DNA of 36,987 nt from a virus, in IMG/VR virus record IMGVR_UViG_3300021963_000336, positions 1-36,987 of that record. One strand, written 5' to 3'. Position 1 is the stretch's first letter, and each line of letters opens with the position of its first letter. The position numbers and the translations under genes were made by a program. The notes beneath the pieces were generated by a model. That model saw nothing but the letters and a program-made list of their open reading frames with translations. It ran no database searches and had not been told where the DNA came from. Below, piece after piece: positions 12,392 through 36,987 of the stretch.

Positions 12392-13093
12392 TTAAAAAAG
12401 ACTGCCACCTTGGCCGCCACTTTGCGGAGCGCCTTGCGCGCCGCCCTGCGCGCCAGAGGGGCCAATACTGGGCGCAGGGGTGGAAGAATATGAGGGCAGT
12501 TTGGGGCCCTGGTATGACGAGGGCATTTGCAAGCCGATGGATTGATAGTTAAAAGATTTGTTAGACGGGCCAAACCCTTGAGGAGTTGAAGGACCCATTG
12601 AAGGAGTATTGGGCATCGCAGGGCCTAGCGTACCCGGAGGAGCGGGAGGGGCAAATTGCTGTTGCTGTAATTGCCCCTGCGGGGATACCGGTTGAATTCC
12701 TACCGATGGGGTACTCGGCATTGCTGGGCCTAGCGTACCCGGGAGAGCAGGAGCGGCAAATTGCTGCATGGATGGGATTGACATCGATGGGGTACTTGGC
12801 ATTGCTGGGCCTAGCATACCCGGGGGAGCAGGAGCGGCAAATTGTTGCAGTTGCTGCGAAGACAGCAACTGCATGTATGGATTTGTGGATTGGGGCGCCA
12901 TTTGAGGCATGCTTTGCAACATAGGCGAAGACAAAGAACCGATCCCCCCTTGTGTTGCCATATCTTGTGCAGCCGCCCCCTGTTGAAGTCTCATCATTAC
13001 ATCAGGAGATGCGCCAAATGAGGGCTGCATAACAGGGACGGGCGTAGCCTGCATCGGCGCTTGCGGACGGCTGAATAGATTAAAGAAAGGCAT
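12392..13093 (-). CDS. Repeat-rich Pro/Gln/Gly virion-region protein, 233 aa
   Basis: This is a 233-residue low-complexity protein rich in Pro, Gln, Gly, Ser and Met. Three copies of a unit near QQFAAPAPPGMLGPAMPSTP occupy about residues 83-165; the DNA copies are at 12612-12660, 12717-12765 and 12798-12846. The C-terminal 40 residues are Gly/Gln/Ser-rich and end GGQGGSLF. Disordered, Met/Pro-rich composition is shared with the 819-aa gene of the same operon. The context suggests a minor virion or assembly protein, but no homologue is recognised. The gene starts three bases after the upstream stop, with GAGGTAACCC before the ATG. Confidence 0.75.
   Translation of the reverse strand: MPFFNLFSRPQAPMQATPVPVMQPSFGASPDVMMRLQQGAAAQDMATQGGIGSLSSPMLQSMPQMAPQSTNPYMQLLSSQQLQQFAAPAPPGMLGPAMPSTPSMSIPSMQQFAAPALPGTLGPAMPSTPSVGIQPVSPQGQLQQQQFAPPAPPGTLGPAMPNTPSMGPSTPQGFGPSNKSFNYQSIGLQMPSSYQGPKLPSYSSTPAPSIGPSGAQGGAQGAPQSGGQGGSLF
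12612..12846 (-). repeat. Three 49-bp direct repeats inside the Pro/Gln/Gly gene
   Basis: Copies at 12612-12660, 12717-12765 and 12798-12846 share a GGGCCTAGC-tACCCGG core followed by GGCAAATTG. They are spaced 105 and 81 bases apart, both multiples of three, so the frame is kept. The two right-hand copies also share the sequence just before them (GATGGGGTACT). Unequal recombination could change copy number without breaking the gene. Confidence 0.85.
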
Positions 13094-20297: not shown

Positions 20298-22442
20298 TTA
20301 TCCCCGCGAGGCGTTGCGCTCAAGCTGATGCATAAGGGCGTACATTTTCTTCGCCCCGGCTCTGCGGCTGCCATTGCCCATGGCCTTCACGGCCTTGGCG
20401 GTCATGACAAATTCGCCGTCAGACAGCATCGCAGGGATGGAATCCGACGTTTCGGTTCCAGGGCCGCTGATTGCTCCTGTTTTCCGAGGATACCCGCCCG
20501 TGGCCAAAGAGGCAATACCGCCGTAGGCGGCCCGCCGGGGGTTGAGATAGTCGTAAGCTGGCGCTCGGACATCCGCCATCGAGGCGAAGGGGCTCCAAGA
20601 GGAAGAGCCCGTGATGTTGCCTTGGGCGCTGTATTGAACGCCGGGCAACCCTTGAATCATGTACCTGCTGGGGTCCTGATTGATAAGGTCCTGGCCCCTG
20701 GCCGAAGGAACAAGAGTTGGCTTAGGGGGCGCGCCCGGCGTAAATCCACCTGCAAGCCCCATCACCCCCACGCCGGCAGCAGCCAAGGGGCCGTACTGGC
20801 GCAGCAAGCCTGGGTTGTTGGCGCTGGCGGCCTTCATTGCTTCGCTGTACGAAGCGCCATTGGCCCGAGCATTTTGGAAGGCTTCTGTGTTTTGCAGTTC
20901 CGCCGCCGACATGGTCTTGGGGAAGAACAGATCAGAAGCGCCTTGTTTGACGGTGTCAAACGCGCCTTCCTTACCCTGCATCAGGTCGCCAATTCCGCCG
21001 GCCATCCGCTGGAAGGAGTCGCCAGCAGTAGGAGTACCGGTCGGGGCTCCGGCCACGGTGTAGCCCGCCTCTGGCGCCGCGCCCGGAGGCAGTTGAAGGC
21101 CCGCAGTGGGGCTATACGGAGCACCCGTCCCTTGCGCCGCCATATTGATCATCGGGGGCTCAACATACGGGCCCATTATTTGGTCCGCCGTCACTCCCTG
21201 AGAGACAGGGCCCAGGGGCTCCGGCATCACCGGATTTGGGGGAGCAACGGGCGAAGTTAGGACGGGAGGTGCAGGGGGAGCAACGGGCGCAGGAGGGGGA
21301 GCAACCGGCGCAGTCTGCGTCCCGCCTTCAATCTGAGTGCTGACGCTCTCCGGGGTAACGGGCCGTGCAGCATCTTGAACGCTTTGGGGGCTCATGGAAC
21401 CAGGGGGCAAGCCGGTGGGAGTGGTTGTGCCAAACCCGCTCTTCATGCCGGCCATGAGACCACTGGTGGCGCCAGCGGTCAGACCAGACTTGACGGCGTC
21501 AGCGAGCTTTTGACCAGACAGCAGGCCCGCGCCCGTTCCAACAATACCCGCCGTGACAGCAGCATTGGCCGCGACGTTGGTAATACCCGCCGCGCCAACA
21601 TACTCGGCAACCGCGCCACCAGGAGCACCGAAGTAGGCCGTGGCCCCTGCTACAAGTGCCTGCTTGATGTTGCCGCCGCCAGCAAGAGTGACAGTACCGG
21701 CAGCAAGGGGCGCCGCAAAAGCGCCAGCAACAGGCCCGAGGAACGTGGCCAGTGCAACGGTAGCCAAGATTCGACCAATCGGAGATTTCAAAATCGGTTT
21801 GACTGCATTAACAACCGACTTGAATGCGGACTTGATCGCACCACCAATCTTCTGGAAGATATTTTTGTACTCGGGCAACCCGGTTTTTGGGTTGATCGTG
21901 CCCGAGCCACCATGGCTGCGCAGAAGACGTGCTTCCTTCGGATTGATATGGGCCAGCATGGTGTCGCCATCCCGGCCCCGAGATGCCACTAGACGTGCCG
22001 CTTCAGCAATCCCACCCCGGGCAAATTGGGCCGGGGGAGCCGGCATTTCCTGCTGGGTTCCCCCTTGACGTTGCTGGAGCGCTTGCATGACAACAGTGCC
22101 GATTGCCGACAGCACTTCCGGATCAAAATCCTCGGGCAGGTCATCCTGTTCAATCGCCCCGGAGCTAATCGCTTCTTGCCGCCGCTTGGCGTATTCCGCC
22201 TCCCCGCCTTCGTAAAGATACTGGACAATTTCCAGCATCTTTTGCAGGTCCTCATCGGAGAGTTGATCCAGCGCAGGAGTGATGCTGCGCATCAGTTCCT
22301 GTATGTCGGCAGAAGCTTGGGGAGAAGCAGTACTCAGGCCTGTCTGTACGGCATCGTACGAGTCTTCCAACGACAATGGTGCGGGGGCCTCGGTCCCCGC
22401 ACCTTGCGGCAGAGACATGATGCCTTGATCTTCAGCGGCCAT
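20298..22442 (-). CDS. Tail-associated virion protein with tape-measure-like C-terminal motif, 714 aa
   Basis: This is a 714-residue virion protein. Its N-terminal 130 residues are acidic and helical. A conserved-looking segment then includes DTMLAHINPKEARLLRSHGG and NPKTGLPEY. Residues about 215-320 are hydrophobic Ala/Gly-rich (likely membrane-active helices, ILATVALATFLGPVAGAFAA). A Pro-rich linker (about 350-410) precedes the C-terminal domain. The last 70 residues contain GPGTETSDSIPAMLSDGEFV and KMYALMHQLE, a motif I know from the C-termini of phage tape-measure and tail-tip-associated proteins. The middle hydrophobic region and this end fit a protein that channels DNA at the envelope. 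AAGGAG lies seven bases before the ATG. Confidence 0.8.
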   Translation of the reverse strand: MAAEDQGIMSLPQGAGTEAPAPLSLEDSYDAVQTGLSTASPQASADIQELMRSITPALDQLSDEDLQKMLEIVQYLYEGGEAEYAKRRQEAISSGAIEQDDLPEDFDPEVLSAIGTVVMQALQQRQGGTQQEMPAPPAQFARGGIAEAARLVASRGRDGDTMLAHINPKEARLLRSHGGSGTINPKTGLPEYKNIFQKIGGAIKSAFKSVVNAVKPILKSPIGRILATVALATFLGPVAGAFAAPLAAGTVTLAGGGNIKQALVAGATAYFGAPGGAVAEYVGAAGITNVAANAAVTAGIVGTGAGLLSGQKLADAVKSGLTAGATSGLMAGMKSGFGTTTPTGLPPGSMSPQSVQDAARPVTPESVSTQIEGGTQTAPVAPPPAPVAPPAPPVLTSPVAPPNPVMPEPLGPVSQGVTADQIMGPYVEPPMINMAAQGTGAPYSPTAGLQLPPGAAPEAGYTVAGAPTGTPTAGDSFQRMAGGIGDLMQGKEGAFDTVKQGASDLFFPKTMSAAELQNTEAFQNARANGASYSEAMKAASANNPGLLRQYGPLAAAGVGVMGLAGGFTPGAPPKPTLVPSARGQDLINQDPSRYMIQGLPGVQYSAQGNITGSSSWSPFASMADVRAPAYDYLNPRRAAYGGIASLATGGYPRKTGAISGPGTETSDSIPAMLSDGEFVMTAKAVKAMGNGSRRAGAKKMYALMHQLERNASRG

Positions 22443-22484: not shown

Positions 22485-23876
22485 TTACTGCGTCAAATCG
22501 TAGAAAGAGATCGACCCGACGCCATCGCCGGTCGTAGCGCCAGAAATTGTGCGGACGCCCAGGGTATAAATATCACTTACGTTTGTCAGCGACACGCCAA
22601 GTTGCTGATCCCAGTTAAATCCTGTCGGAGAGATCGTATCTGCCTGCCCGCCGCCGCCCGAGCTTGAGATATAGGCGGTCTGGACAATCGTCCCTGCCGT
22701 GGCAATCGCCGTGGCAGCAACATCAAACTCGACGTTGCTGTCCGATGGAACCGTTGCTGCCCAAGTCGCCCCCGTCAAAACCGGGTTCTTGATGAGAGCT
22801 ACTTCGTAGTTTTGCAGGGTGGTTGGCTGGAACTGGATTCGGTTGGGCAGCACCACCGCGCCAAGTGCAGTTGACGCCAGCCGAATTGATACCACTGGTA
22901 GGAAGTTGGCGGCTGTATTAATGGTGCCAAGCACCGTCGTACGTCTAGCAACGTGCTCAATCGACGTGGCCTCAAAGCCCCCCTCCGATATAACAGAAGA
23001 GCAAATCTGCGTCAGGGTGGCAGCAACTGCCGACGTTGTGGTGGTAATTTCATAACGAACCGGCAAAACAGCCGTCGTCATATACACCGTGGTTCCGTAG
23101 ACGTTGGCGGTATCAAACGTGTGGCAAACGATGTACTGGCCGTTGATGATGAAGCCACACCGAACCGACCCCACGCCAAGCCACTCAAAGTCCATCCAAA
23201 GAATTTGAGGATGCGTCAGATCAAGCGTCAGGCCGGACGCTCCCGTGCCATCAAGTTTGTCGCCATTCCAGTTTGCTTGGTTGGCAAATCTAGCGTCACT
23301 TGCCGTGCCCGTTGTGTATGAACGCATCACGAACGAATTGACGCCACCCGTGCGCTGGAAAAATACGCCGTTTTGCGTGTTGAAGTAGCCCACCCTCTGT
23401 GTGAGGTTGGCAGATGACCCGTTGTCCATCTGAAACGTAGCAAGGGCCAGCAAGCCCTTGCCCGGTTGATACAGCATATTGCGGTACGACTGCCGCACAA
23501 CGGAACCCACACCAGCGCCCGTCACGGCCATGCTGACACTGGACTGATTGGTATTGAAGGTAGAAGTGCCAGTGCCAGAAGTGGAGGTGCTGAACTGGTT
23601 ATCAGCAGCATACCGGCTCTGACTATCAAACAGGGTATACGGTTCACTGACTCGAAGCCGGCCAAACGCATCGGTGTTGGTGCCGCCAATAGAAATAGGG
23701 ATTGTGTCCATAGTTGCTACAAGCTGCCCCAGAATGTTGTCGAGCCGATTGAAGTACAGGCGCAGGACATCGGAAAATTGGTCATGGAATCTCTTCTCAT
23801 ACTCAAGAGGCGCGGTGGGTAGACGCGGTGCCGTAACCCGGTTGAGTTCAAACTCAGAGGTGACAATCAGCGTCAT
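22485..23876 (-). CDS. Beta-rich phage structural protein, 463 aa
   Basis: The N-terminal 50 residues hold an LPTAPLEYEKRFHDQFSDVL and LRLYFNRLDNIL segment that I recall from the start of phage tail or neck proteins. A GRLRVSEPYTLFDSQSRYAA motif follows. The remaining 380 residues are Thr/Ser/Asn/Gly-rich beta structure with no lysine-rich or catalytic motif, in the style of a jelly-roll or beta-sandwich virion protein. Position next to the tail hub candidate suggests a neck, hub or decoration protein of the tail. No enzymatic function is seen. GGAG lies seven bases before the ATG at 23876, three bases after the upstream stop. Confidence 0.75.
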   Translation of the reverse strand: MTLIVTSEFELNRVTAPRLPTAPLEYEKRFHDQFSDVLRLYFNRLDNILGQLVATMDTIPISIGGTNTDAFGRLRVSEPYTLFDSQSRYAADNQFSTSTSGTGTSTFNTNQSSVSMAVTGAGVGSVVRQSYRNMLYQPGKGLLALATFQMDNGSSANLTQRVGYFNTQNGVFFQRTGGVNSFVMRSYTTGTASDARFANQANWNGDKLDGTGASGLTLDLTHPQILWMDFEWLGVGSVRCGFIINGQYIVCHTFDTANVYGTTVYMTTAVLPVRYEITTTTSAVAATLTQICSSVISEGGFEATSIEHVARRTTVLGTINTAANFLPVVSIRLASTALGAVVLPNRIQFQPTTLQNYEVALIKNPVLTGATWAATVPSDSNVEFDVAATAIATAGTIVQTAYISSSGGGGQADTISPTGFNWDQQLGVSLTNVSDIYTLGVRTISGATTGDGVGSISFYDLTQ

Positions 23877-27444: not shown

Positions 27445-27896
27445 ACGTGCATGATGATGTAAACGAACCCGATCAGGAAAGAGACAAACGCAACGGTGAT
27501 GAAGATATACAGCGTCATCATCGCTGTCTCTTGTCTACGCTTTAGCTTCGCTGCCTTCTCCTCCGCCTCCCGCTTCTTCCTGGCTCTTTGAATCTCCATG
27601 TGCTTCTGGAGAAACAGTGTCCAGAGTTCTGGATAGCCGCCGTACACCAACTGGTGCTTCAAGTGCTCCATGTCCTCACGCAGCTTGTTTTGCTGCATGA
27701 CGATCTCCATTGCCTGCGCCGCGTCTGACTTCCCAGCATGCGCTTCGTTAGCGGCCTTGTTGATAACGTCAGCAGACTCAAAGAGCGCCGAAAACTCCTT
27801 GATGCAGCCGGTGATGTCCTTACCGAGCTTGAGCGCCTTTTGGATGCCTGCCACCGCAGCTTGCGCAGTGGCAAATGCGGTGATTGGGTCGATCAT
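27441..27896 (-). CDS. C-terminally membrane-anchored coiled-coil protein, 151 aa
   Basis: The 151-residue protein starts MIDPITAFATAQAAVAGIQK, an amphipathic Ala-rich helix I recall from conserved phage proteins near lysis and tail genes. The middle is helical, with a charged coiled-coil at about 95-122 (RARKKREAEEKAAKLKRR). One TM helix lies at the C-terminus (about 126-149). Tail-anchored topology with the bulk in the cytoplasm is predicted. Starts and stops overlap both neighbours by ATGA, so it is translated with the 2OG oxygenase and the 205-aa membrane protein. The lysis context suggests it interacts with the holin or membrane, but this is inference. Confidence 0.75.
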   Translation of the reverse strand: MIDPITAFATAQAAVAGIQKALKLGKDITGCIKEFSALFESADVINKAANEAHAGKSDAAQAMEIVMQQNKLREDMEHLKHQLVYGGYPELWTLFLQKHMEIQRARKKREAEEKAAKLKRRQETAMMTLYIFITVAFVSFLIGFVYIIMHV

Positions 27897-28504
27897 GGGT
27901 CACTTTTAATTTGCAAATGTGTGCGTCCAGTGCGGTTTCCCATACGGCCCCGGATAAACGTGTTGAACGCAATGCTCACACGAGTCCGAGAGCTTTTGGT
28001 CGGCGGGACCATGTGCTCCATGTAAGAAGGAAAGAGGATCAACTGCCCGGCCTCAACATCAAAACCCCACGAGTGTGCGTTGAGGGTGTTGCCCGGAGCG
28101 GGGTCGATGGTCATCTGACTAGGGCCGGGGCGGTAGAAAATAACCTCGTCGCAGTTGCGTTCAGCCTGCACATAGAAGACGCCCGAGATGAACGAGTTGG
28201 CGTGAGCATGTTTTTGGTGCTGCTTGCCCGGCTCGGTGTAGTTTGCCCAAGACTGCGTCACAAACAAGGTAGTGTCATAAGCGGGGCTGTATACCGAAGC
28301 AATGTGCTCATCCAAGCAAGCCTGCACAAACTTTCCCAGCTCGACCATCCGGGGGTCGTCCAAAAGCTGATCGTTAACCGTAATCTCGTTGTGCATGTTT
28401 TGAGCTTTTTCCTGCTCGTACACGCAAGCAAGCTCTTCCATCGTAAGCCCGCGCCCAAGGGAGTGCATGCTGACAACAGTGGGGAAGATGGTAAACAGCT
28501 TCAC
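27893..28504 (-). CDS. Putative 2OG-Fe(II) oxygenase
   Basis: This is a 203-residue protein of the 2OG-Fe(II) oxygenase superfamily (PF13759-like). The double-stranded beta-helix core shows a QHQKHAHANSFISGVFYV motif with H99 and H101, and GQLILFPSYMEHMVPP with the distal ligand H164. R175 in the RTRVSIAFN strand should bind 2-oxoglutarate. I chose GTG 28504, which has GAAGG seven bases upstream; 30 further codons open upstream are in the tail-fibre gene. Such enzymes hydroxylate protein or nucleic-acid substrates and are common in T4-like cyanophages. The substrate here is unknown. Next to the tail fibre and lysis genes, a virion-protein or host-target modification is possible. Confidence 0.88.
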   Translation of the reverse strand: MKLFTIFPTVVSMHSLGRGLTMEELACVYEQEKAQNMHNEITVNDQLLDDPRMVELGKFVQACLDEHIASVYSPAYDTTLFVTQSWANYTEPGKQHQKHAHANSFISGVFYVQAERNCDEVIFYRPGPSQMTIDPAPGNTLNAHSWGFDVEAGQLILFPSYMEHMVPPTKSSRTRVSIAFNTFIRGRMGNRTGRTHLQIKSDP

Positions 28505-28514
28505 TGGACAACCT

Positions 28515-29531
28515 TCACGCCGTGCGCTTCCACATGTACACAGTGATGTACGGCTGGTAGTTGGCGTTGGTGCCAGAAGAACCAGAAGATGCAACAGTCG
28601 TGGTGATGTTCGCGGTGCCTGTATTGGTCGTGAGTGTAGTATTGACCTCCCCTCGGAACGTCGCGTTGGGTCCGTTCTGGTAAGAGCTAGAGGTGTTGCG
28701 GCCCCCCTCCTGTACCACGGTATGCGTGTGGCCAGAATCAGTAGACGTAGCCGTGTGGGTGTGAGCTACCGTAATTGCATCCGCGCTACCGCCGGTCTCT
28801 TCAGCCGTGTCGAACAGCGGGTTGCCTGCGTTAAAACCAACCGGCACCCGACCAGCGCCAAATGCGGTCCAAGTACCGAAGCCAAGCAACGTGCCGGGAT
28901 TAGTGGAGTTCGTGGCGTTAATGTAGATGGAGCCCACGGGGTGGAGCGCTTGGAGCGCCGCCTGCACAAAAGCGGTGGTGGCGATGCTGGTGTCGTTATC
29001 GCCAAATGTTTGCGTAACTGCGGTAGACCCGGCGGTGGCGGTCACTACTCCATTAATATTCCCCGTCACGTTGCCAGTCAGGTCTCCGGTCACGTTGCCA
29101 ACCACAGTACCAATCACATGGCTGTTCTGGACCAAGAAGTCGGTGCCGTTAGACCAGACCGTCATGGTCTTTCCAGCGGGGATGGCCACCCCAGCGCCAG
29201 CAGCAGTCGTGTTTCCAGCTACGGTGGAGTTGTAGATCGTGGCAGTGTACGAGCTGCCGTTTTGGATAACGTACTGCTTGGAGACCGGGGGCGCGTAGAC
29301 CGCGAAGTTTGCCGCTGTAGTCGTGGTCAACCGGATCATGGCAAGCCGCGCCTGATCATATGCGCCATCCACAATCGTGAATGCTTGGCTGGCAGAGGAT
29401 GCGATCGCCGCGTACCCGGCAATCGCATCCTCCAAGATGGTGCCCAGGTTGGTGTTGGTGGTATCGCCCCACGTACCAGCTTCTGCGCCGTTAGCGATGA
29501 GGGTGAGTCGGAGAATGTCTGATGTGGCCAT
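28515..29531 (-). CDS. Tail fibre with collar-type C-terminal domain, 338 aa
   Basis: The N-terminus (LRLTLIANGAEAGTWGDTTN, about 7-26) is the particle-attachment motif seen in many phage fibres. Residues about 138-165 contain short G-N-V-T-G-D/N repeats, typical of triple-stranded fibre shafts. The C-terminal part has PVGSIYINATNSTNP and GTWTAFGAGRVPVGF (about 198-233), then HTHT and HTHT (257-270). Such HxH motifs bind metal in T4-type fibre tips. It ends NYQPYITVYMWKRTA, a collar-type C-terminus. It would form the host-contacting trimer or baseplate fibre. A strong AAGGAGCAACG ribosome site precedes the ATG. Confidence 0.9.
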   Translation of the reverse strand: MATSDILRLTLIANGAEAGTWGDTTNTNLGTILEDAIAGYAAIASSASQAFTIVDGAYDQARLAMIRLTTTTAANFAVYAPPVSKQYVIQNGSSYTATIYNSTVAGNTTAAGAGVAIPAGKTMTVWSNGTDFLVQNSHVIGTVVGNVTGDLTGNVTGNINGVVTATAGSTAVTQTFGDNDTSIATTAFVQAALQALHPVGSIYINATNSTNPGTLLGFGTWTAFGAGRVPVGFNAGNPLFDTAEETGGSADAITVAHTHTATSTDSGHTHTVVQEGGRNTSSSYQNGPNATFRGEVNTTLTTNTGTANITTTVASSGSSGTNANYQPYITVYMWKRTA

Positions 29532-29593: not shown

Positions 29594-32500
29594 TTACCGA
29601 ACCTCTGGAATGATGTTCCACGAGGTTGCCGTCGAGGCATCCACCACACCCCATGCGTTTGTTGGCCAAGCGGCGTTGATCGCATTGAAAGTGGAGAAGT
29701 TTGGTGAAGTGTAGAAAGTGCCCGTAAAAGGGATGGCGTAACCCGGCGGGATGTACTGACCGTTAATAGACCCCATCAAGTAGCTTGCCTGTATTGTTGG
29801 GATGTAAAAACGCCCCGGCAGATAGCCAAGCAGCGTGAACGTGGTCAGTGTGGAGTTTGCGGCGTAGAACGCAGCATTGGTGGAACCCGCACCGGCGGTA
29901 GCAAAGACAAACTGCGCCCCATCCCAAAACGCCCAAACTGCCTGCGTACTAAGCGGCGACGGGGGGCTAACGGTTGTCCATGTAATCCCGTTAGTACTGG
30001 TGCGAATCTGGGGCGAATCGAACGCAAAGATGTTTCTTGCAATTACAACAAATCTAGAACCGCTCCACGATACCGATCCACGTTGCCCAGACCAACCCAC
30101 CCCAGTGAAACTAACGGCCTGAGTCCACGTCAGTGCGTTTGCGCTAGTGAATACCCTTCGCCCGTCGCACATAACGTACAGACCAGCACCGAACGCAAAC
30201 CCTACAACAGCCCCCTGCAAATCACCGGGCAGAGCGGAACTAGCAGTCCACGTCGCGCAATTGTCTGTGCTGATGTAGGTGAGGTTGTTGTAGGCAATGA
30301 CGATGGTAGAGCCATTGCCAAACATCCCCAACACTTGTCTGGTGTTAGGGGTGCTGGTGGGCAGTGTTGTGACCGCCGACCAATTCAGGCCATCGGTGCT
30401 GCGCAGCAATTTAGCGCCGTACGAAACGTTGGTGTTAGCGCTGTACACAAAGTACTGGCCATTGATGTACTGAATTGAGTTAAAAACTCCCGGTATAGTC
30501 AATCGTGGAACTATCCAAGCCCCGTTCCTGTAGAACATGTACTGCTGGTAGACGTCAGTTGTCTGCTGGCCATTGAGCAAAATAGCCGTACCGCCGCCCG
30601 CCGCAGATGCGGCCCATGTTGGCCCATACCTATCAGTCGTGATCGGAATGATGTTCCAGCCACCAGACTGAGATGCCTCGACATGCGCCCATGTTGTGGG
30701 TTGCGCGGCATCGACAAGGCTCCAAGTTACGTTCTGAGAATCATTGATTAGGTTCCACAGGAACGCCCCGATCACGCTGTCGGACAGGGTGGCGCTCTCA
30801 GGGACGGTGACGTTGTAGATGCTGCCTGCCGGGTTGAAGTTGTCAATAGCCGTGGCAGCGGCAACCGCGATGGCGTTGAAGATGGACGGGGCAACCAGCA
30901 CCGAGTCTGCGGCGGCAGAGGTCTCGGAAATACTGGCGGCAAATGCTTGGAGTGCGCTGGCTACATCGGTAATCGTGGCTGACTCGGTAATCGTCGCCAA
31001 GGGGATGAAGGCTGCGCTGTTGGTCTGGGTGCCGGTGGCGGTCTCGGACAGAGAAACGGGGAAGACAGCCGTGGTGGTAAGTGCGTCTTGCGCCTGCGCA
31101 AGCTCCTGCATCAGGATGTTGTAGGCTGATCCCGGAGCGTTTACAGCATCTTGGGCCGTAGCGGCTTCTTGGAGCCGACCAACAAAATTTACCAGCGCGG
31201 TAGGAGACCCCACTAACGTAGAGAACTGGACACGCCCGTTTGCGCCATTGCCACCCGGAGCGTTTAAAAATCCACCGGTATATATGCCGCCCGCACCGCC
31301 ACCGCCCGGGGCGTTACCCGCAGCGCCGCTTGTAGTTCCACCAGTACCTCCGCCCGGACCTCCTGCGGTTCCCCCGGTAATGACCACTCCAGTACCGCCA
31401 GAAATATTGATGTCGCCGCCAGTGGCAGTCCCTCCGGCCCCAAAAACAGCGCCGCCTCCAGCCGAAATAGTGCTGTAAGTAGACGCAGTGCCTGCGGTGG
31501 CTGGGACAACGGGAAAGACACTAAACCCCGCGCCGCCACTACCCACAACGTAATTCAAGCTCGCGCCGGGGGTCACGCTCAATATCTTCTTAGCGTAAGC
31601 GCCGCCACCTCCACCAGCGCCATTTCCAGATGCTCTGCCTTCGTACCCGCCAGCGCCACCGCCCCACAGTTCAATGATTGCGCTGGTCACTCCAGCAGGG
31701 ACAGTCCATGAACCGGCACCGGGGGTGTTAAAGGTGGCGTTTGCGACATAGCTGCCCTCGTAGATGGTGAGAGCCTCAACAACCGCCGCCGCTAACGCCC
31801 GTAGGGCACTGATCTGGTCCGAACCGGTGGCAAGCTCGCTGACCTGTGCGGCAACGACAAAGAACGCTTGGACAAGCTCTTGGGCGACGGCAGACTCGGA
31901 GATGTTTGATTTAAACGTAGCCCGGGCGGTAATGGCCTCAGTTCCGGTTGCGGTCTCGGAGATTGTTCCCGCAGCGGTCAACTTGGCTGCGTCAGTGTCA
32001 GTGCCGGTGGCGCTCTCAGAAATACTGGGCCGCGCAATGTAGCGCGGGGAAACAGTCTCAGTGCCCGTGGCAGTCTCAGCAATGTTGGGCTGGGCAATAT
32101 ACCGGGGAGTGACGGTCTCAGTGCCGGTAGCAGACTCGGAGATATTTGGGTTGGCGATGTACCGAGGGGTGACGGTTTCAGTGCCGGTAGCAGACTCAAC
32201 GATGTAAACGAAGTATCCCTTAAGGGCAGAGATAAGGTCCGTGATCGTGGCGGACTCAGCTACGGCGGAACGGAATGTAGCCCGCGCAGAAACTGCGTCA
32301 GTACCAGTAGCCGTCTCGGCAATGTTGGGACGGGCGATGTAGCGGGTGGCAATAGCTTCAGTACCGGTAGCAGACTCGAAGATGTTTGGGTTAGCGATGT
32401 ACCGAGGAGAAACGGTTTCCGTGCCGGTAGCAGACTCAACGATGTAGGCAACCGCCCCCTTGAGCGCCGAGACTAAGTCCGTGATCGTGGCGGACTCGGC

Positions 32501-35500
32501 TACAGCAGAACGGAATATAGCCAGAGCGGAAACCGCGTCAGTGCCAGTAGCTGTTTCGGCAATGTTGGGCCGAGCGATGTAGCGGGTGGCTACGGTTTCA
32601 GTGCCGGTAGCGGACTCAGAAACACTGGGCCGCAGGGTGTTGGTAGCAGAATCGGTGTCTGTACCCGTGGCAGTCTCGGAGATGCTTGTCGGGAAGCTAA
32701 TACGCCCAACATCGGTATCCGTTCCCGTGGCGGTCTCATCCAGAGTAGCGCGGGCAATTAGCCGAGCAAGGTCAGTATCGGCAAGGGTGGCAGACTCAAG
32801 GATTGCAGCCCCCAAGGCCGACTGCGCGGAAATGGTGTCAGAACCAAGCCCGGATTCAGCAAGAGAGGCCCGGAAAATAGCTTGAGCCAGTACGGAGTCA
32901 GACCCTGTGGCAAGTTCCGATACGGTACCAAGGTAAAGAAAACTAGCGCTAATGCTATCTGTGCCTGTGGCGGTATCGGACAGGCTGCTGTTAAAAGCTG
33001 CTCGGGCAAGGATAGAGTCAGTACCCGTACCCGTTTCAGTAATCGTTGCGGCGTAGACCGTGCCGCCAGCGGCAACGAAGTACCAGCCCAGAGAACCGTT
33101 GTTGGTGGAGTTGGCCCCGGCGTACCACTCATCCACCAAGGGATAAGCACGGACGTTACTGATGGTGAGGTAGTCAACCGAGTTGGCGGCAACGCCAGCG
33201 CCCGTGTAAATTAAAGTGCCCGGAGCGGCGGCGGATGTACCACTGACAGTCAAAACCCGAGTTGCCGCCCCCGTAGCGGTCCACGGATCGGTCAGGGTCT
33301 GGGTGGTACTGCCCAGCGCAATCGACGTAGCGCCCGTGGCGCTGTACGTGTTGGTAATTGTCTTGAAGGTGTTGTTTCCGCCAATGGTCAAGGTGCCCGC
33401 ACCGCCTTGATTGAGGGTGATGCCGGAATAGGAAAGACCCCCGCCAGTAAACTGTTTACCAGAAGCGTTTGGGAAGCTAATGGTTCCAGAGCCAGTAATA
33501 GTAATGTTGGAACCGGAAACGGCCCACTGCGCCCCAGACCCTGAAAATGTCCACGTGCCGGAACCAATAGCTAATGTTCTGGTAAGCGTTCCGGTAGAAG
33601 AGAATGCTTGATATGATCCCGTTCCTGCGTTGGTTACGTTATACCCGTTGGCATCAAAGGTACCAGCCAAAAGTTCCGGGTTAAAGTTGGCCGTTCCAGA
33701 ACTTGTTACCCAAGCGTCTTGAAGAGTTACAGAGCCTCCAAGGCTGTTTATAGTTGTCTGCTGGGTAAACGTCTTGCCTGCGCTGGTGATCTGCTGCGCC
33801 CCTCGACCTGCGTACGTTAACCTGCCCGAGCCACTTAGCGTTGTTCCCGTCCCGTTGATCCAGTTGCCGTAGATAGTCGGGTTTGTCGTACCCATCGCCA
33901 GCGTCATTGTGTTGGCCGTTCGGGCCGACATATCAATGGTGCCGATGTTGAAGGAAGCGTTGATGGTGACGATATTCCCGCTAGTCGGATAAGCGGTGGG
34001 CGAAGAAGGAAAAATGGCAGTGTCTTGGGCTAACGGAAAAGCAGTAGCGTCTAATGCGCCATTATTGGTAAGTGACCAACTTCCCGATCCTGTGGTTGCC
34101 CATGAAACCGAAGTAGACTGTCTGTAATAAACCGTCTTGGCTGCGGGGAACGTGATCCCGGAGTTTCCCTTGGCGTCACCTAACCGGGTTCCACTGATAG
34201 GAGCCGCTGCGCCTGCAATAGTGATGTCCCTGAAATCAGCGTCGGTCGCAGACACAGCCGCGCAGGTAAGGGTTCTGGTGGTGCCTATCGTGTCAGAGGC
34301 AAGGAACGTGCGATATGCGGCTGCGGTACCCGCGCTAACGGTCAGGGTCCCGTTGATAGTTTGGTTGGCGTTAAAAGTGACGGGGGTAATTCCTACAGTA
34401 GTGCGACCCGTAAAGGACAGGTTGTTAAATGTGTTTGCTTGGTTAATAGCTATAGAAGCAGGGTTGGCGCCGGTAAAACTGATGTTATAAAATGTCAGTC
34501 CGCCGCCGTTAAAAATAGGTCCAGAAACAGAACTTGATGTAATAGTAGATGTGTTGGCATTAAATGTTAAGTTAGTAGATGTAGTAAATGTAACAAAAGT
34601 TGCTTGTGATATAGATAATGAACTGCTATTTAATGTTATTGTTCTTATGTTGCTATTGTTAGACGAAATACTTCCCAAAGTAACCGCATAGTTGCTTGCC
34701 GATGTATTAAATGTTCCGTATGTAACTGTAAGTGTAGGCGTACCGATATCTAAAGCACTTCCAAGCGTCCATGTTGATCCAATTCCGAGAACCGTGCAGT
34801 TTGACCCAAGTGTCAGCCCATTGGTTGTAAACGTGTAGCTGGCGTTACCTGCCCAGTTCATCGTGCCCGTGTATGTCCGGGTGATCCCGGTAGCAGCGAA
34901 GCTGACGTTCCCGTGGAAGGCAATACCCACCGTGCCTGCAAAGGTCACGTTACCCGCCAGCGGGCCAGCCATGGTGAACGAAGCGCAGCGAGCTAGGGTT
35001 ACTCCTGCGTCAATGGTCGCTGTGTAGGCTGTGGCGTTAGAGGCGGAGTCAAAGACAACCGCGTCAAGGGATGTTGGGATGGCTGCGCCCGATGCGCCAC
35101 CGGAGGATGTGGACCACTTAGTGGTGGAGGACCAGTTGCCCGTGCCGCCTACCCAGTAGAGAGTGCGTGGGGCAGGTGTAGCCGTGAAAAAGATAGGGCC
35201 ACTGTTACCCGATACGTTTGTGCTGTTTGCGCCAACGTAGAACTCACCGGAGCTGGTGGTAGAGACTGCGCAGTCACGAACAGACAGATAATCAACACCT
35301 GTGGTGGCCGGACCTAATATAAATAAGTTAAAAACCGTGCCAGCAGCATTGGAGGTAACAGTAACCACATTACCAGAAGTACCGGTAATTGACCACTTGC
35401 CTACTTGTGTAGTTACGTTTTGAGTAAATTGTACTGTATGCGCAACTGTCTTGGTAGACGCCAATTCGGATAAAATAATAGACCCACTAAAAAACGTACT

Positions 35501-36987
35501 AGACGTTCCGGTAGCCCCTCCAATTGTGAGTTTGTTGTAATACAGGCCGCTACCAATAAAAGTTCTGCCACTTGTGGATGTATCAGAGAGAACAATATTA
35601 GAAGTCCCAACAATCAATATTGACGCAGCATTTGCGTTCCACACAGTTCCAGTGCCGGACATCGTCCACGTACCAGAACCCATCCGCGTGGTGGTGTTGC
35701 CCGCAGATGAAAACGCCCCTGCTGTTACGTTATAGGTGACAGCATCAAATGTCCCTGCGGTGAGGGTCAAGGTGCGGGTAGAACCTAGCGACAGAGCGTC
35801 GGCAAGTTGGACGGTGCCAGAAGGATTGTTAACGGTTACGTTGCAGCCAAACTGAACGCCGTTGCTGGTGATGGCCTGAGTGCCGTTCTTGCTAAAAACC
35901 AACGTGTCCGTGGTGCTGGAGGAGGTAACACCTGTGCCAAACGTCCAGTTGCCATATACCACTGGGTTGTTAGTGCTGGTGCTTAGCGTCATTGCACTAG
36001 TCCGTGCAGACGCATCAAAGGTGCCGATGTTCCACGCCCGCTCAATTGTGATCGTGCCTGCGGCTCCTGTGTTATCAAACACAGCCGTGTCTTGAGCCAA
36101 GGGAAAGTTATTAACCGCCGGGGCTCCTCCAGAGCTAGTTGCCCACCCCGTAGCGCTCCAGTTCTGTGTGCCCGCAAGGTTCCAGTAGACCGTCTTGGCC
36201 GCAGGAAAGGTGATGCCCGAGTTGCCACCGCAGTCTCCTGCGCGTGTAGGAGAAGCGCCTGATGCCGCACCAGCAAGGTTGATGTCGCGGAAATCACAAT
36301 CAGTGGCGGATATGGCTGCGGCTGTCAGCGTGCGCTGAGTTCCAAGGGTGTTAGATTGTAGGAATACACGCCGCACCGCAGATGCGCCTGCACAAGTTAG
36401 GGTGCCGTTGATTGTCTGGTTTGCAGAAAATGCATAAACAGCAAAACCAGCACCTATCCCATTTACAATTGTAAGATTATTAAATACTGTATTTACAGCG
36501 CCGCTAAAAGTATATACAAAGGAGCCCGAAGAACTATTATTTAATGTTACATTATACCATGTAACTCCACCCCAAAATACGTTAAGCGTACCGCTGGAGT
36601 TGTAATTAACATTAACAGAAGATGTTCCTGCGTTAAAAGTTAAATTAGTTGCGCCAAAATTTACATGCGTTGTTACGGAGCTTAAGGTTAAAGTGCTCGC
36701 TCCAAGATTAACGGTCCTTACGTTGCTGCTGTTAGACGTAATGCCACCAGCAGTTATCGCATAGCTTGCTGTAGTAAACGTACCGTTTGTAACCGTCAGA
36801 ATCTGCGAGCCAATGTTCAGCGCGTCGGCAAGTTGAACCGTGCCGCCGTAGGTGTCGATGGTGATGGGACCAGAAAATGTTTTGCCTGCGCTGGTGATTG
36901 TCTGGGTTGTGCCACCGGAGAAAGTTAGCGTTACGGCGTTTGTTAATGTTGTGCCGGAGCCGTTTGTCCAATTTCCGTACACCGTTG
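29594..36987 (-). CDS. Giant modular repeat adhesin / tail fibre (N-terminus outside window)
   Basis: More than 2460 residues are visible, and the frame runs open off the right edge, so the start codon lies outside. Reading N to C: three whole and two partial beta-rich modules of about 345 residues, each beginning near KTVYW (36,190-33,100); a 22-copy array of 20-residue repeats (33,055-31,755); a glycine-rich sheet domain (31,730-31,215, TVPAGVTSAIIELWGGGAGG); a second shorter set of degenerate 20-residue units (31,180-30,750); and a beta-propeller region with Asp-box motifs (30,640-29,650). There is no Cys-rich or catalytic motif and no signal peptide in view. Size, beta content and neighbouring fibre gene point to a receptor-binding tail appendage. 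A conserved attachment domain would be expected at the missing N-terminus. Confidence 0.85.
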   Translation of the reverse strand, partial: TVYGNWTNGSGTTLTNAVTLTFSGGTTQTITSAGKTFSGPITIDTYGGTVQLADALNIGSQILTVTNGTFTTASYAITAGGITSNSSNVRTVNLGASTLTLSSVTTHVNFGATNLTFNAGTSSVNVNYNSSGTLNVFWGGVTWYNVTLNNSSSGSFVYTFSGAVNTVFNNLTIVNGIGAGFAVYAFSANQTINGTLTCAGASAVRRVFLQSNTLGTQRTLTAAAISATDCDFRDINLAGAASGASPTRAGDCGGNSGITFPAAKTVYWNLAGTQNWSATGWATSSGGAPAVNNFPLAQDTAVFDNTGAAGTITIERAWNIGTFDASARTSAMTLSTSTNNPVVYGNWTFGTGVTSSSTTDTLVFSKNGTQAITSNGVQFGCNVTVNNPSGTVQLADALSLGSTRTLTLTAGTFDAVTYNVTAGAFSSAGNTTTRMGSGTWTMSGTGTVWNANAASILIVGTSNIVLSDTSTSGRTFIGSGLYYNKLTIGGATGTSSTFFSGSIILSELASTKTVAHTVQFTQNVTTQVGKWSITGTSGNVVTVTSNAAGTVFNLFILGPATTGVDYLSVRDCAVSTTSSGEFYVGANSTNVSGNSGPIFFTATPAPRTLYWVGGTGNWSSTTKWSTSSGGASGAAIPTSLDAVVFDSASNATAYTATIDAGVTLARCASFTMAGPLAGNVTFAGTVGIAFHGNVSFAATGITRTYTGTMNWAGNASYTFTTNGLTLGSNCTVLGIGSTWTLGSALDIGTPTLTVTYGTFNTSASNYAVTLGSISSNNSNIRTITLNSSSLSISQATFVTFTTSTNLTFNANTSTITSSSVSGPIFNGGGLTFYNISFTGANPASIAINQANTFNNLSFTGRTTVGITPVTFNANQTINGTLTVSAGTAAAYRTFLASDTIGTTRTLTCAAVSATDADFRDITIAGAAAPISGTRLGDAKGNSGITFPAAKTVYYRQSTSVSWATTGSGSWSLTNNGALDATAFPLAQDTAIFPSSPTAYPTSGNIVTINASFNIGTIDMSARTANTMTLAMGTTNPTIYGNWINGTGTTLSGSGRLTYAGRGAQQITSAGKTFTQQTTINSLGGSVTLQDAWVTSSGTANFNPELLAGTFDANGYNVTNAGTGSYQAFSSTGTLTRTLAIGSGTWTFSGSGAQWAVSGSNITITGSGTISFPNASGKQFTGGGLSYSGITLNQGGAGTLTIGGNNTFKTITNTYSATGATSIALGSTTQTLTDPWTATGAATRVLTVSGTSAAAPGTLIYTGAGVAANSVDYLTISNVRAYPLVDEWYAGANSTNNGSLGWYFVAAGGTVYAATITETGTGTDSILARAAFNSSLSDTATGTDSISASFLYLGTVSELATGSDSVLAQAIFRASLAESGLGSDTISAQSALGAAILESATLADTDLARLIARATLDETATGTDTDVGRISFPTSISETATGTDTDSATNTLRPSVSESATGTETVATRYIARPNIAETATGTDAVSALAIFRSAVAESATITDLVSALKGAVAYIVESATGTETVSPRYIANPNIFESATGTEAIATRYIARPNIAETATGTDAVSARATFRSAVAESATITDLISALKGYFVYIVESATGTETVTPRYIANPNISESATGTETVTPRYIAQPNIAETATGTETVSPRYIARPSISESATGTDTDAAKLTAAGTISETATGTEAITARATFKSNISESAVAQELVQAFFVVAAQVSELATGSDQISALRALAAAVVEALTIYEGSYVANATFNTPGAGSWTVPAGVTSAIIELWGGGAGGYEGRASGNGAGGGGGAYAKKILSVTPGASLNYVVGSGGAGFSVFPVVPATAGTASTYSTISAGGGAVFGAGGTATGGDINISGGTGVVITGGTAGGPGGGTGGTTSGAAGNAPGGGGAGGIYTGGFLNAPGGNGANGRVQFSTLVGSPTALVNFVGRLQEAATAQDAVNAPGSAYNILMQELAQAQDALTTTAVFPVSLSETATGTQTNSAAFIPLATITESATITDVASALQAFAASISETSAAADSVLVAPSIFNAIAVAAATAIDNFNPAGSIYNVTVPESATLSDSVIGAFLWNLINDSQNVTWSLVDAAQPTTWAHVEASQSGGWNIIPITTDRYGPTWAASAAGGGTAILLNGQQTTDVYQQYMFYRNGAWIVPRLTIPGVFNSIQYINGQYFVYSANTNVSYGAKLLRSTDGLNWSAVTTLPTSTPNTRQVLGMFGNGSTIVIAYNNLTYISTDNCATWTASSALPGDLQGAVVGFAFGAGLYVMCDGRRVFTSANALTWTQAVSFTGVGWSGQRGSVSWSGSRFVVIARNIFAFDSPQIRTSTNGITWTTVSPPSPLSTQAVWAFWDGAQFVFATAGAGSTNAAFYAANSTLTTFTLLGYLPGRFYIPTIQASYLMGSINGQYIPPGYAIPFTGTFYTSPNFSTFNAINAAWPTNAWGVVDASTATSWNIIPEVR
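29700..30620 (-). other. Asp-box beta-propeller domain of the adhesin
   Basis: Four S-x-[DN]-x-x-x-x-W motifs lie near 30,380-30,403 (RSTDGLNW), 30,248-30,277 (ISTDNCATW), 30,125-30,150 (TSANALTW) and 29,977-30,003 (RTSTNGITW). They have about 130-base spacing, the blade length expected for sialidase-type Asp-box propellers. No sialidase catalytic Arg triad or Tyr/Glu pair can be assigned, so a carbohydrate-binding role is more likely than cleavage. Confidence 0.75.
31755..33055 (-). repeat. 22-copy, 60-bp tandem repeat encoding a 20-residue unit
   Basis: The coding repeat has a consensus near xISESATGTETVxxRYIAxP. The DNA copies are in exact 60-bp register, with GTGCCGGTAGC-GACTC as the best-conserved part (in plus-strand reading). 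Conserved positions are E, S/T-A-T-G-T, an acidic pair and a hydrophobic tail. A higher-order 240-bp duplication is visible: units around 32,221-32,340 recur at 32,461-32,580. Confidence 0.9.
33100..36200 (-). repeat. About 1.03-kb modular repeats of the adhesin N-terminal half
   Basis: Recurring landmarks are Y-[WY]-x-W(A/S)xTG at about 36,170, 35,150 and 34,110, and YGNW-x-GTG at 36,982, 35,955 and 33,870. DFRDI with NSGITFPAAKTVY occurs at 36,290 and 34,225. Spacing is about 1.02-1.04 kb (about 345 codons), or 2.06 kb for the elements present in alternate modules. Modules are related but diverged. Confidence 0.75.

Follow-up and report, generated by a model that had tools for sequence, protein, structure and literature searches.

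A 20-residue repeat family of probable phage tail adhesins with unit numbers that differ between relatives

The linear IMG/VR virus record IMGVR_UViG_3300021963_000336 (36,987 bp; hereafter the window), from an uncultured aquatic phage, ends inside a long gene whose product contains a strictly periodic run of 20-residue repeats. What does such an array build, and does its length change as phages diverge? The repeat is a real family in probable phage tail adhesins and is absent from the catalogues searched (Pfam, PHROG and NCBIfam). As for its role, we lean, if modestly, towards the array being an elongated β-structured shaft of a virion tail adhesin, with a length that evolves by gain and loss of whole units. 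The gene and its repeat features are as follows:

29594..36985, minus strand: adhesin open reading frame (ORF), at least 2463 aa, running off the contig end
31739..33058, minus strand: main repeat array, 22 units of 20 aa (60 bp), residues 1310-1749 of the ORF fragment
32339..32578, minus strand: units 9-12, first copy of a four-unit block
32099..32338, minus strand: units 13-16, second copy of this block; the two copies are 81% identical in DNA
30761..31189, minus strand: continuation of the array, 7 further and more divergent units, with insertions of 1-2 residues (NAPGS, NPAGS) in the inter-unit loop

A sequence-only reading of the window had described 22 copies of an exactly 60-bp repeat, free of indels, at 31755-33055. 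Phase and autocorrelation bear this out at 31739-33058: the 22 consecutive units contain no indel, the acidic turn motifs detected by regular expression fall in one phase modulo 20 (21/21), and the DNA autocorrelation is 0.52 at a lag of 60 and 0.58 at a lag of 240, whereas 1000 codon shuffles never exceeded 0.346. The unit consensus is x-[AFY]-x-[AS]-x-[VI]-x-E-[ST]-A-T-G-T-[DE]-x-[VI]-x-A-x-x. Tandem Repeats Finder detects just 60-bp and 240-bp sub-arrays, because the units are merely ~50% identical in DNA. The extent first given was incomplete: seven units more lie at 30761-31189, after a Gly-rich insert that splits unit 22 after its first turn, and the window protein has 29 in total. The repeat gene, moreover, is read from the minus strand, and the end of the contig truncates it. 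Plus-strand ORFs within the array (e.g. 31764-32042 and 32586-32885) were set aside: facing so repetitive a coding sequence, they are taken to be open by chance.

The duplicated 240-bp block of four units was likewise confirmed, as units 9-12 and 13-16, and had been taken as a sign of recent expansion. Its two copies differ at 46% of synonymous sites (proportion of synonymous differences, pS, 0.46; nonsynonymous, pN, 0.08). Because this is not far below the pS of 0.56-0.64 that separates other units of the window from those of the related phages L004 and L009, the duplication is not recent; it is old and under purifying selection. Only the window (offset 4) and L017 (offsets 1 and 4) showed block duplications within arrays at ≥75% DNA identity. 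The L017 array has near-identical neighbouring units at these offsets (88-90% DNA identity), and its expansion is more recent than that of the window.

Relatives of the array occur at at least 104 loci in IMG/VR viral contigs, and the best 80 were kept for analysis. When a 20-position profile was scanned over 81 loci, the spacing between units was exactly 20 in 1030 of ~1100 intervals, and the short indels fell at unit positions 19-1. Two gene types carry the repeat. The long type (window and L004-L016) has N-terminal modules wherever the contig reaches that far. The short, stand-alone type is mostly 150-440 aa, with a GGWGSGTWGQAGWG-like N-terminus (others occur in L029 and L043) and a LWEIIDDTQTANWQNIGNTQ Trp repeat at the C-terminus; 10 and 14 are its commonest unit numbers. 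Pfam, PHROG and NCBIfam gave no convincing match to the array or to the stand-alone protein; PHROG 34423, of unknown function, matched the window protein marginally (E 0.0024). Tblastn against annotated phage records, run with the low-complexity filter on, returned no match to the array or a stand-alone relative. The motif ETATGTD was not found in the literature searched, and papers on repeat-length-variable tail fibres gave nothing on this repeat family. Length-variable repeat shafts are already a known kind of structure; the repeat family itself is missing from the catalogues searched. Among genome contigs, 0 of 62 pattern matches were confirmed, so there is no host or prophage link.

Copy number varies across the relatives looked at, from 13 to 34 units in the window's gene type and from 3 to 24 elsewhere. 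A unit-level alignment shows indels of whole units (+4 in L008, -4 in L011, -4 in L015/L016, -1 in L007 and -1 in the window), and L013 and L015 are 4 units apart at a pS of 0.036. The tree of the upstream gene requires 31 or more changes of unit number, compared with 50 under shuffled labels; unit number is inherited but labile. The commonest state is 10 units (51/108 non-redundant arrays), and the 10-unit arrays are 40-100% identical. Contig pairs at ≥95% flank identity agree in unit number, the sole exception (L054/L063) being explained by an array that is cut off, and differences start at ~93% flank identity and below. The earlier proposal that length changes through recombination of whole units is thus supported between phages, where the whole-unit indels are seen. 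At ≥95% flank identity, however, unit number is constant, with no sign of hypervariability within populations, and the window's own duplication is old. A general rule of four-unit steps, suggested by the 10/14 and 26/30/34 series and the 240-bp block, was rejected: the share of four-unit changes on the upstream-gene tree was 0.32, versus 0.34 with shuffled labels. Odd unit counts are also present (5, 11, 13, 15, 17, 19 and 29), and therefore each unit brings the chain back to the same side.

Could these numbers be neutral slippage noise, or an artefact of assembly, without functional meaning? Short-read assemblies can collapse repeats, and the many changes on the upstream-gene tree also speak for it. 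However, unit number is the same in independent contigs whose flanks are identical (window/L003, L004/L006, L009/L010 and L031/L080), and reads can place the units because these differ by ~50% in DNA. Noise also sits poorly with the high synonymous divergence and low pN/pS within arrays, and with 10 units being commonest across arrays as little as 40% identical. We consider this explanation very improbable.

Conservation within the unit is strikingly regular. Across the 51 non-redundant 10-unit arrays, all ten even unit positions are local entropy minima relative to both neighbours, and entropy is lowered to 0.16 bits at E8 and 0.31 bits at D14. These residues (Glu8 98%, Asp14 91%) flank an A-T-G-T turn. 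Such alternation is typical of a strand that is constrained on one face and free on the other, and it is independent of structure prediction. It bears directly on the idea that the array lacks a regular fold and is a disordered or mucin-like linker rich in Thr, Ser and Ala, for which a solenoid model would be an artefact. The small-residue, Thr/Ser-rich composition suits a linker, as do the moderate predicted local distance difference test (pLDDT) scores and the known solenoid bias of AlphaFold2 (AF2) (PMC11795689). Yet the alternation is complete over 20 positions, E8 and D14 are near-invariant across arrays only 40-60% identical, and there is no length drift inside units, whereas disordered linkers drift in length. 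A linker is accordingly an unlikely account of the array. Nor does the rigid 20-residue period support the flexible shaft of the sequence-only reading.

Single-chain AF2 models show two strands per unit in both the window array and the stand-alone protein. In the window array pLDDT is 75-82 in roughly the first four units and ~60-70 after, with a predicted template modelling score (pTM) of 0.43; in the stand-alone protein the array has a pLDDT of ~57. VIA-align places the model among β-solenoids and tailspike β-helices, with the Pam1 tailspike at Z 21.1 (root mean square deviation, RMSD, 3.2 Å over 359 residues) and CsgA (8c50_A) at Z 25.5 (RMSD 9.2 Å). Foldseek matches to viral proteins at E ≤ 0.001 (Hokovirus, a mimivirus collagen-like protein, a Tetraselmis virus and an ACG-2014f baseplate protein) were set aside, as they share 6-14% identity and geometry only. 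PDB profile matches to designed helical repeats were discarded as periodicity artefacts.

Several of these observations weigh against the shaft as we picture it. Besides the constancy of unit number in close relatives, AF2 confidence is modest (mean pLDDT 62 for the window and 51 for the stand-alone protein; pTM 0.41-0.43), and Foldseek gave no match in the PDB at E ≤ 0.001. AF2 tends to invent β-solenoids for repeat sequences, and uncompensated acids stacked inside the model are named as a warning sign (PMC11795689); E8 and D14 of successive units would stack in just this way. An oligomeric fibre fold, moreover, lies beyond a single-chain predictor. Given the bias and the modest confidence, we therefore treat the solenoid as a favoured inference and not as a result. 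The β-solenoid proposed from sequence is plausible in its two strands per unit, solenoid-like chains and residue alternation, but it leans on models of low to moderate confidence from a method that over-predicts this fold.

The natural exception to this warning is calcium-bound repeats (PMC11795689). The array may belong to a new class of cation-bound β-solenoids in which acidic ladders of Glu8 and Asp14 bind a column of metal ions, most likely calcium, stiffening a ruler-like adhesin shaft with a length set by unit number. This is speculative, and we think it improbable as it stands.

Phage fibres are usually trimers, and the array could instead be an intertwined trimeric shaft (a triple β-spiral or triple-stranded β-helix) that folds only as a trimer, each unit contributing one strand, one tight turn with a Gly and one variable loop on the surface, as in the adenovirus fibre, phage needles and spikes. 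Each unit does have a conserved tight Gly turn and a variable loop, and low single-chain AF2 confidence is what an obligate trimer would give. On the other hand, the constrained face has two acids in every unit, which would be unusual in a buried trimer core, and the single-chain models resemble single-chain β-solenoids, though AF2 is biased that way. We regard the trimer as a possibility to be taken seriously, though on the doubtful side.

For the elongated single-chain shaft that we favour, each 20-residue unit would form one rung of two short strands. Positions ~5-8 would enter the tight acidic turn E8-x-A-T-G-T-D14, the second strand would run over positions 14-20, and the connection to the next unit would be a variable loop at 19-1. 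Stacked rungs could then hold the β-rich N-terminal modules apart from putative C-terminal binding parts (Trp repeats and a propeller-like domain). A Gly-rich domain could be inserted at a turn; this insertion and the indels at 19-1 are as expected, because these positions would be surface loops. Homologous recombination between 60-bp units may gain or lose whole units in frame and so change shaft length, while selection would preserve the turn residues and inward-facing positions.

Several known systems offer partial parallels. Like CsgA (Curlin_rpt, PF07012), the array consists of short tandem units predicted as strand-arch-strand solenoid rungs, the arch having Gly and conserved polar residues. 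It differs in its period of 20 residues, in its motif (E-x-A-T-G-T-D rather than the curli Q-x-G-x-G-N-x-A), in its setting (a phage tail locus rather than a csg operon) and in having no Pfam match to the Curlin_rpt profile. RTX β-rolls and the calcium-bound Marinomonas ice-binding repeats share the tight acidic T-G-x-D turn with x-hydrophobic after it, a length of ~18-20 residues for each two-strand turn, and an adhesin setting, and the RTX block 6sus topped the Foldseek list of the first model, among non-significant matches. Unlike RTX, the array proteins match neither the GGxGxDxux nonapeptide nor the HemolysinCabind profile, have one acidic turn per unit instead of two and carry the extra invariant Glu8; calcium binding here is hypothetical. 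The tailspike β-helices of P22, HK620 and Pam1 are also elongated β structures in phage adhesins, and the predicted model aligns with them at VIA-align Z 16-21 and ~3 Å, but their rungs are irregular without a 20-residue repeat, and a PDB profile search found no sequence relation. Bacterial ice nucleation proteins (PMC9418140) have long arrays of short repeats modelled as a β-solenoid with outward Thr rows; theirs are 16-residue units of another consensus in a bacterial surface protein.

The remainder of the gene, and its neighbour, are organized as follows:

33059..36985, minus strand: N-terminal region, the downstream part of five tandem ~341-aa β-strand-rich modules (YWVGGTGNWSSTTKWS type), by module comparison in L003
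31190..31756, minus strand: inserted Gly-rich domain (Pfam PF21722, Gly_rich_2; ~189 residues), which interrupts unit 22 directly behind its acidic turn
30638..30760, minus strand: Trp-repeat segment (LWNLINDSQNVTWSLVDAAQPTTWAHV...), resembling the C-terminus of stand-alone repeat proteins
29660..30637, minus strand: C-terminal domain, BNR/DUF6242 similarity below Pfam cut-offs (E 0.002 and 0.014)
29597..29659, minus strand: final Trp repeat (NAWGVVDASTATSWNIIPEVR)
28515..29531, minus strand: tail-fibre gene with a Gp10_C domain, by profile match; the adhesin gene lies directly upstream

The overlapping contig L003 (IMGVR_UViG_3300021962_000883) is identical to the window over 7,372 bp and supplies the missing upstream part of the gene, with a start at MADRYWVGG, giving a whole protein of ~2880 aa. 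The window contig (end 36987) breaks inside the gene, which L003 continues past the identical overlap; both records seem to come from one virus. The five N-terminal modules span L003:820-5997, are 26-45% identical to one another and have no match in Pfam or NCBIfam. The Gly_rich_2 profile matches the insert at E 5.3e-10 (40.1 bits against a curated cut-off of 24.3); the insert is also present in L014, and L004-L013 lack it. The domain at 29660-30637 is possibly a β-propeller.

The window array gene sits in the same slot as the array genes of L004, L009, L050 and L055, in the tail module and adjoining the tail-fibre gene. Both gene types occupy this locus in those four contigs, in the order ~190-aa gene, array gene, and fibre gene with a GTWGDTVN-type N-terminus. 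This synteny, the Gp10_C neighbour and the Gly_rich_2 domain back the earlier assignment, and context thus supports the array protein as a probable tail adhesin.

Phage DSL-LC04 (OR003939), placed in the proposed family Dishuiviridae (PMC10611076), has a protein 89% identical to the window's structural protein at 22485-23876. Its protein WJZ48131 occupies the same locus and has a Trp-Gly N-terminus, central short β-type repeats and C-terminal Trp repeats, but its central repeat is of another class (VTGVQATGYVGTVTV, ~22 residues). The same Trp-Gly N-terminus and Trp-repeat C-terminus enclose different central short repeats (VTGVAGTGAVGTVTV class, ESVxATDSQ class) in L170, L171, L174, L164, L196 and L277:1150-2280. 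To judge from these sequences, the ends are conserved while the repeat cassette in the middle is apparently exchanged.

This widespread repeat, absent from the catalogues searched, provides one adhesin part in naturally occurring lengths of 3 to 34 units, a good system for studying the effect of shaft length on host reach and the evolution of tail-fibre length. The repeat flags tail-adhesin genes that are now read as hypothetical in environmental phage genomes, and it is a natural test case for the AF2 solenoid bias.

Elsewhere in the window, a 2OG-Fe(II) oxygenase gene (27893-28594, minus strand) adjoins the tail-fibre and lysis genes, and the DSL-LC04 tail region also has one. The C-terminal segment encoded at 20298-22442 (minus strand) matches tail tape-measure PHROGs (SDSIPAMLSDGEFVM motif); despite this match, gene order is otherwise like that of DSL-LC04, and a DNA-ejection type protein adjoins. 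A 233-aa Pro/Met-rich protein (12392-13093, minus strand) contains three copies of a QQFAAPAPPGTLGPAMPSTPSM-like repeat.

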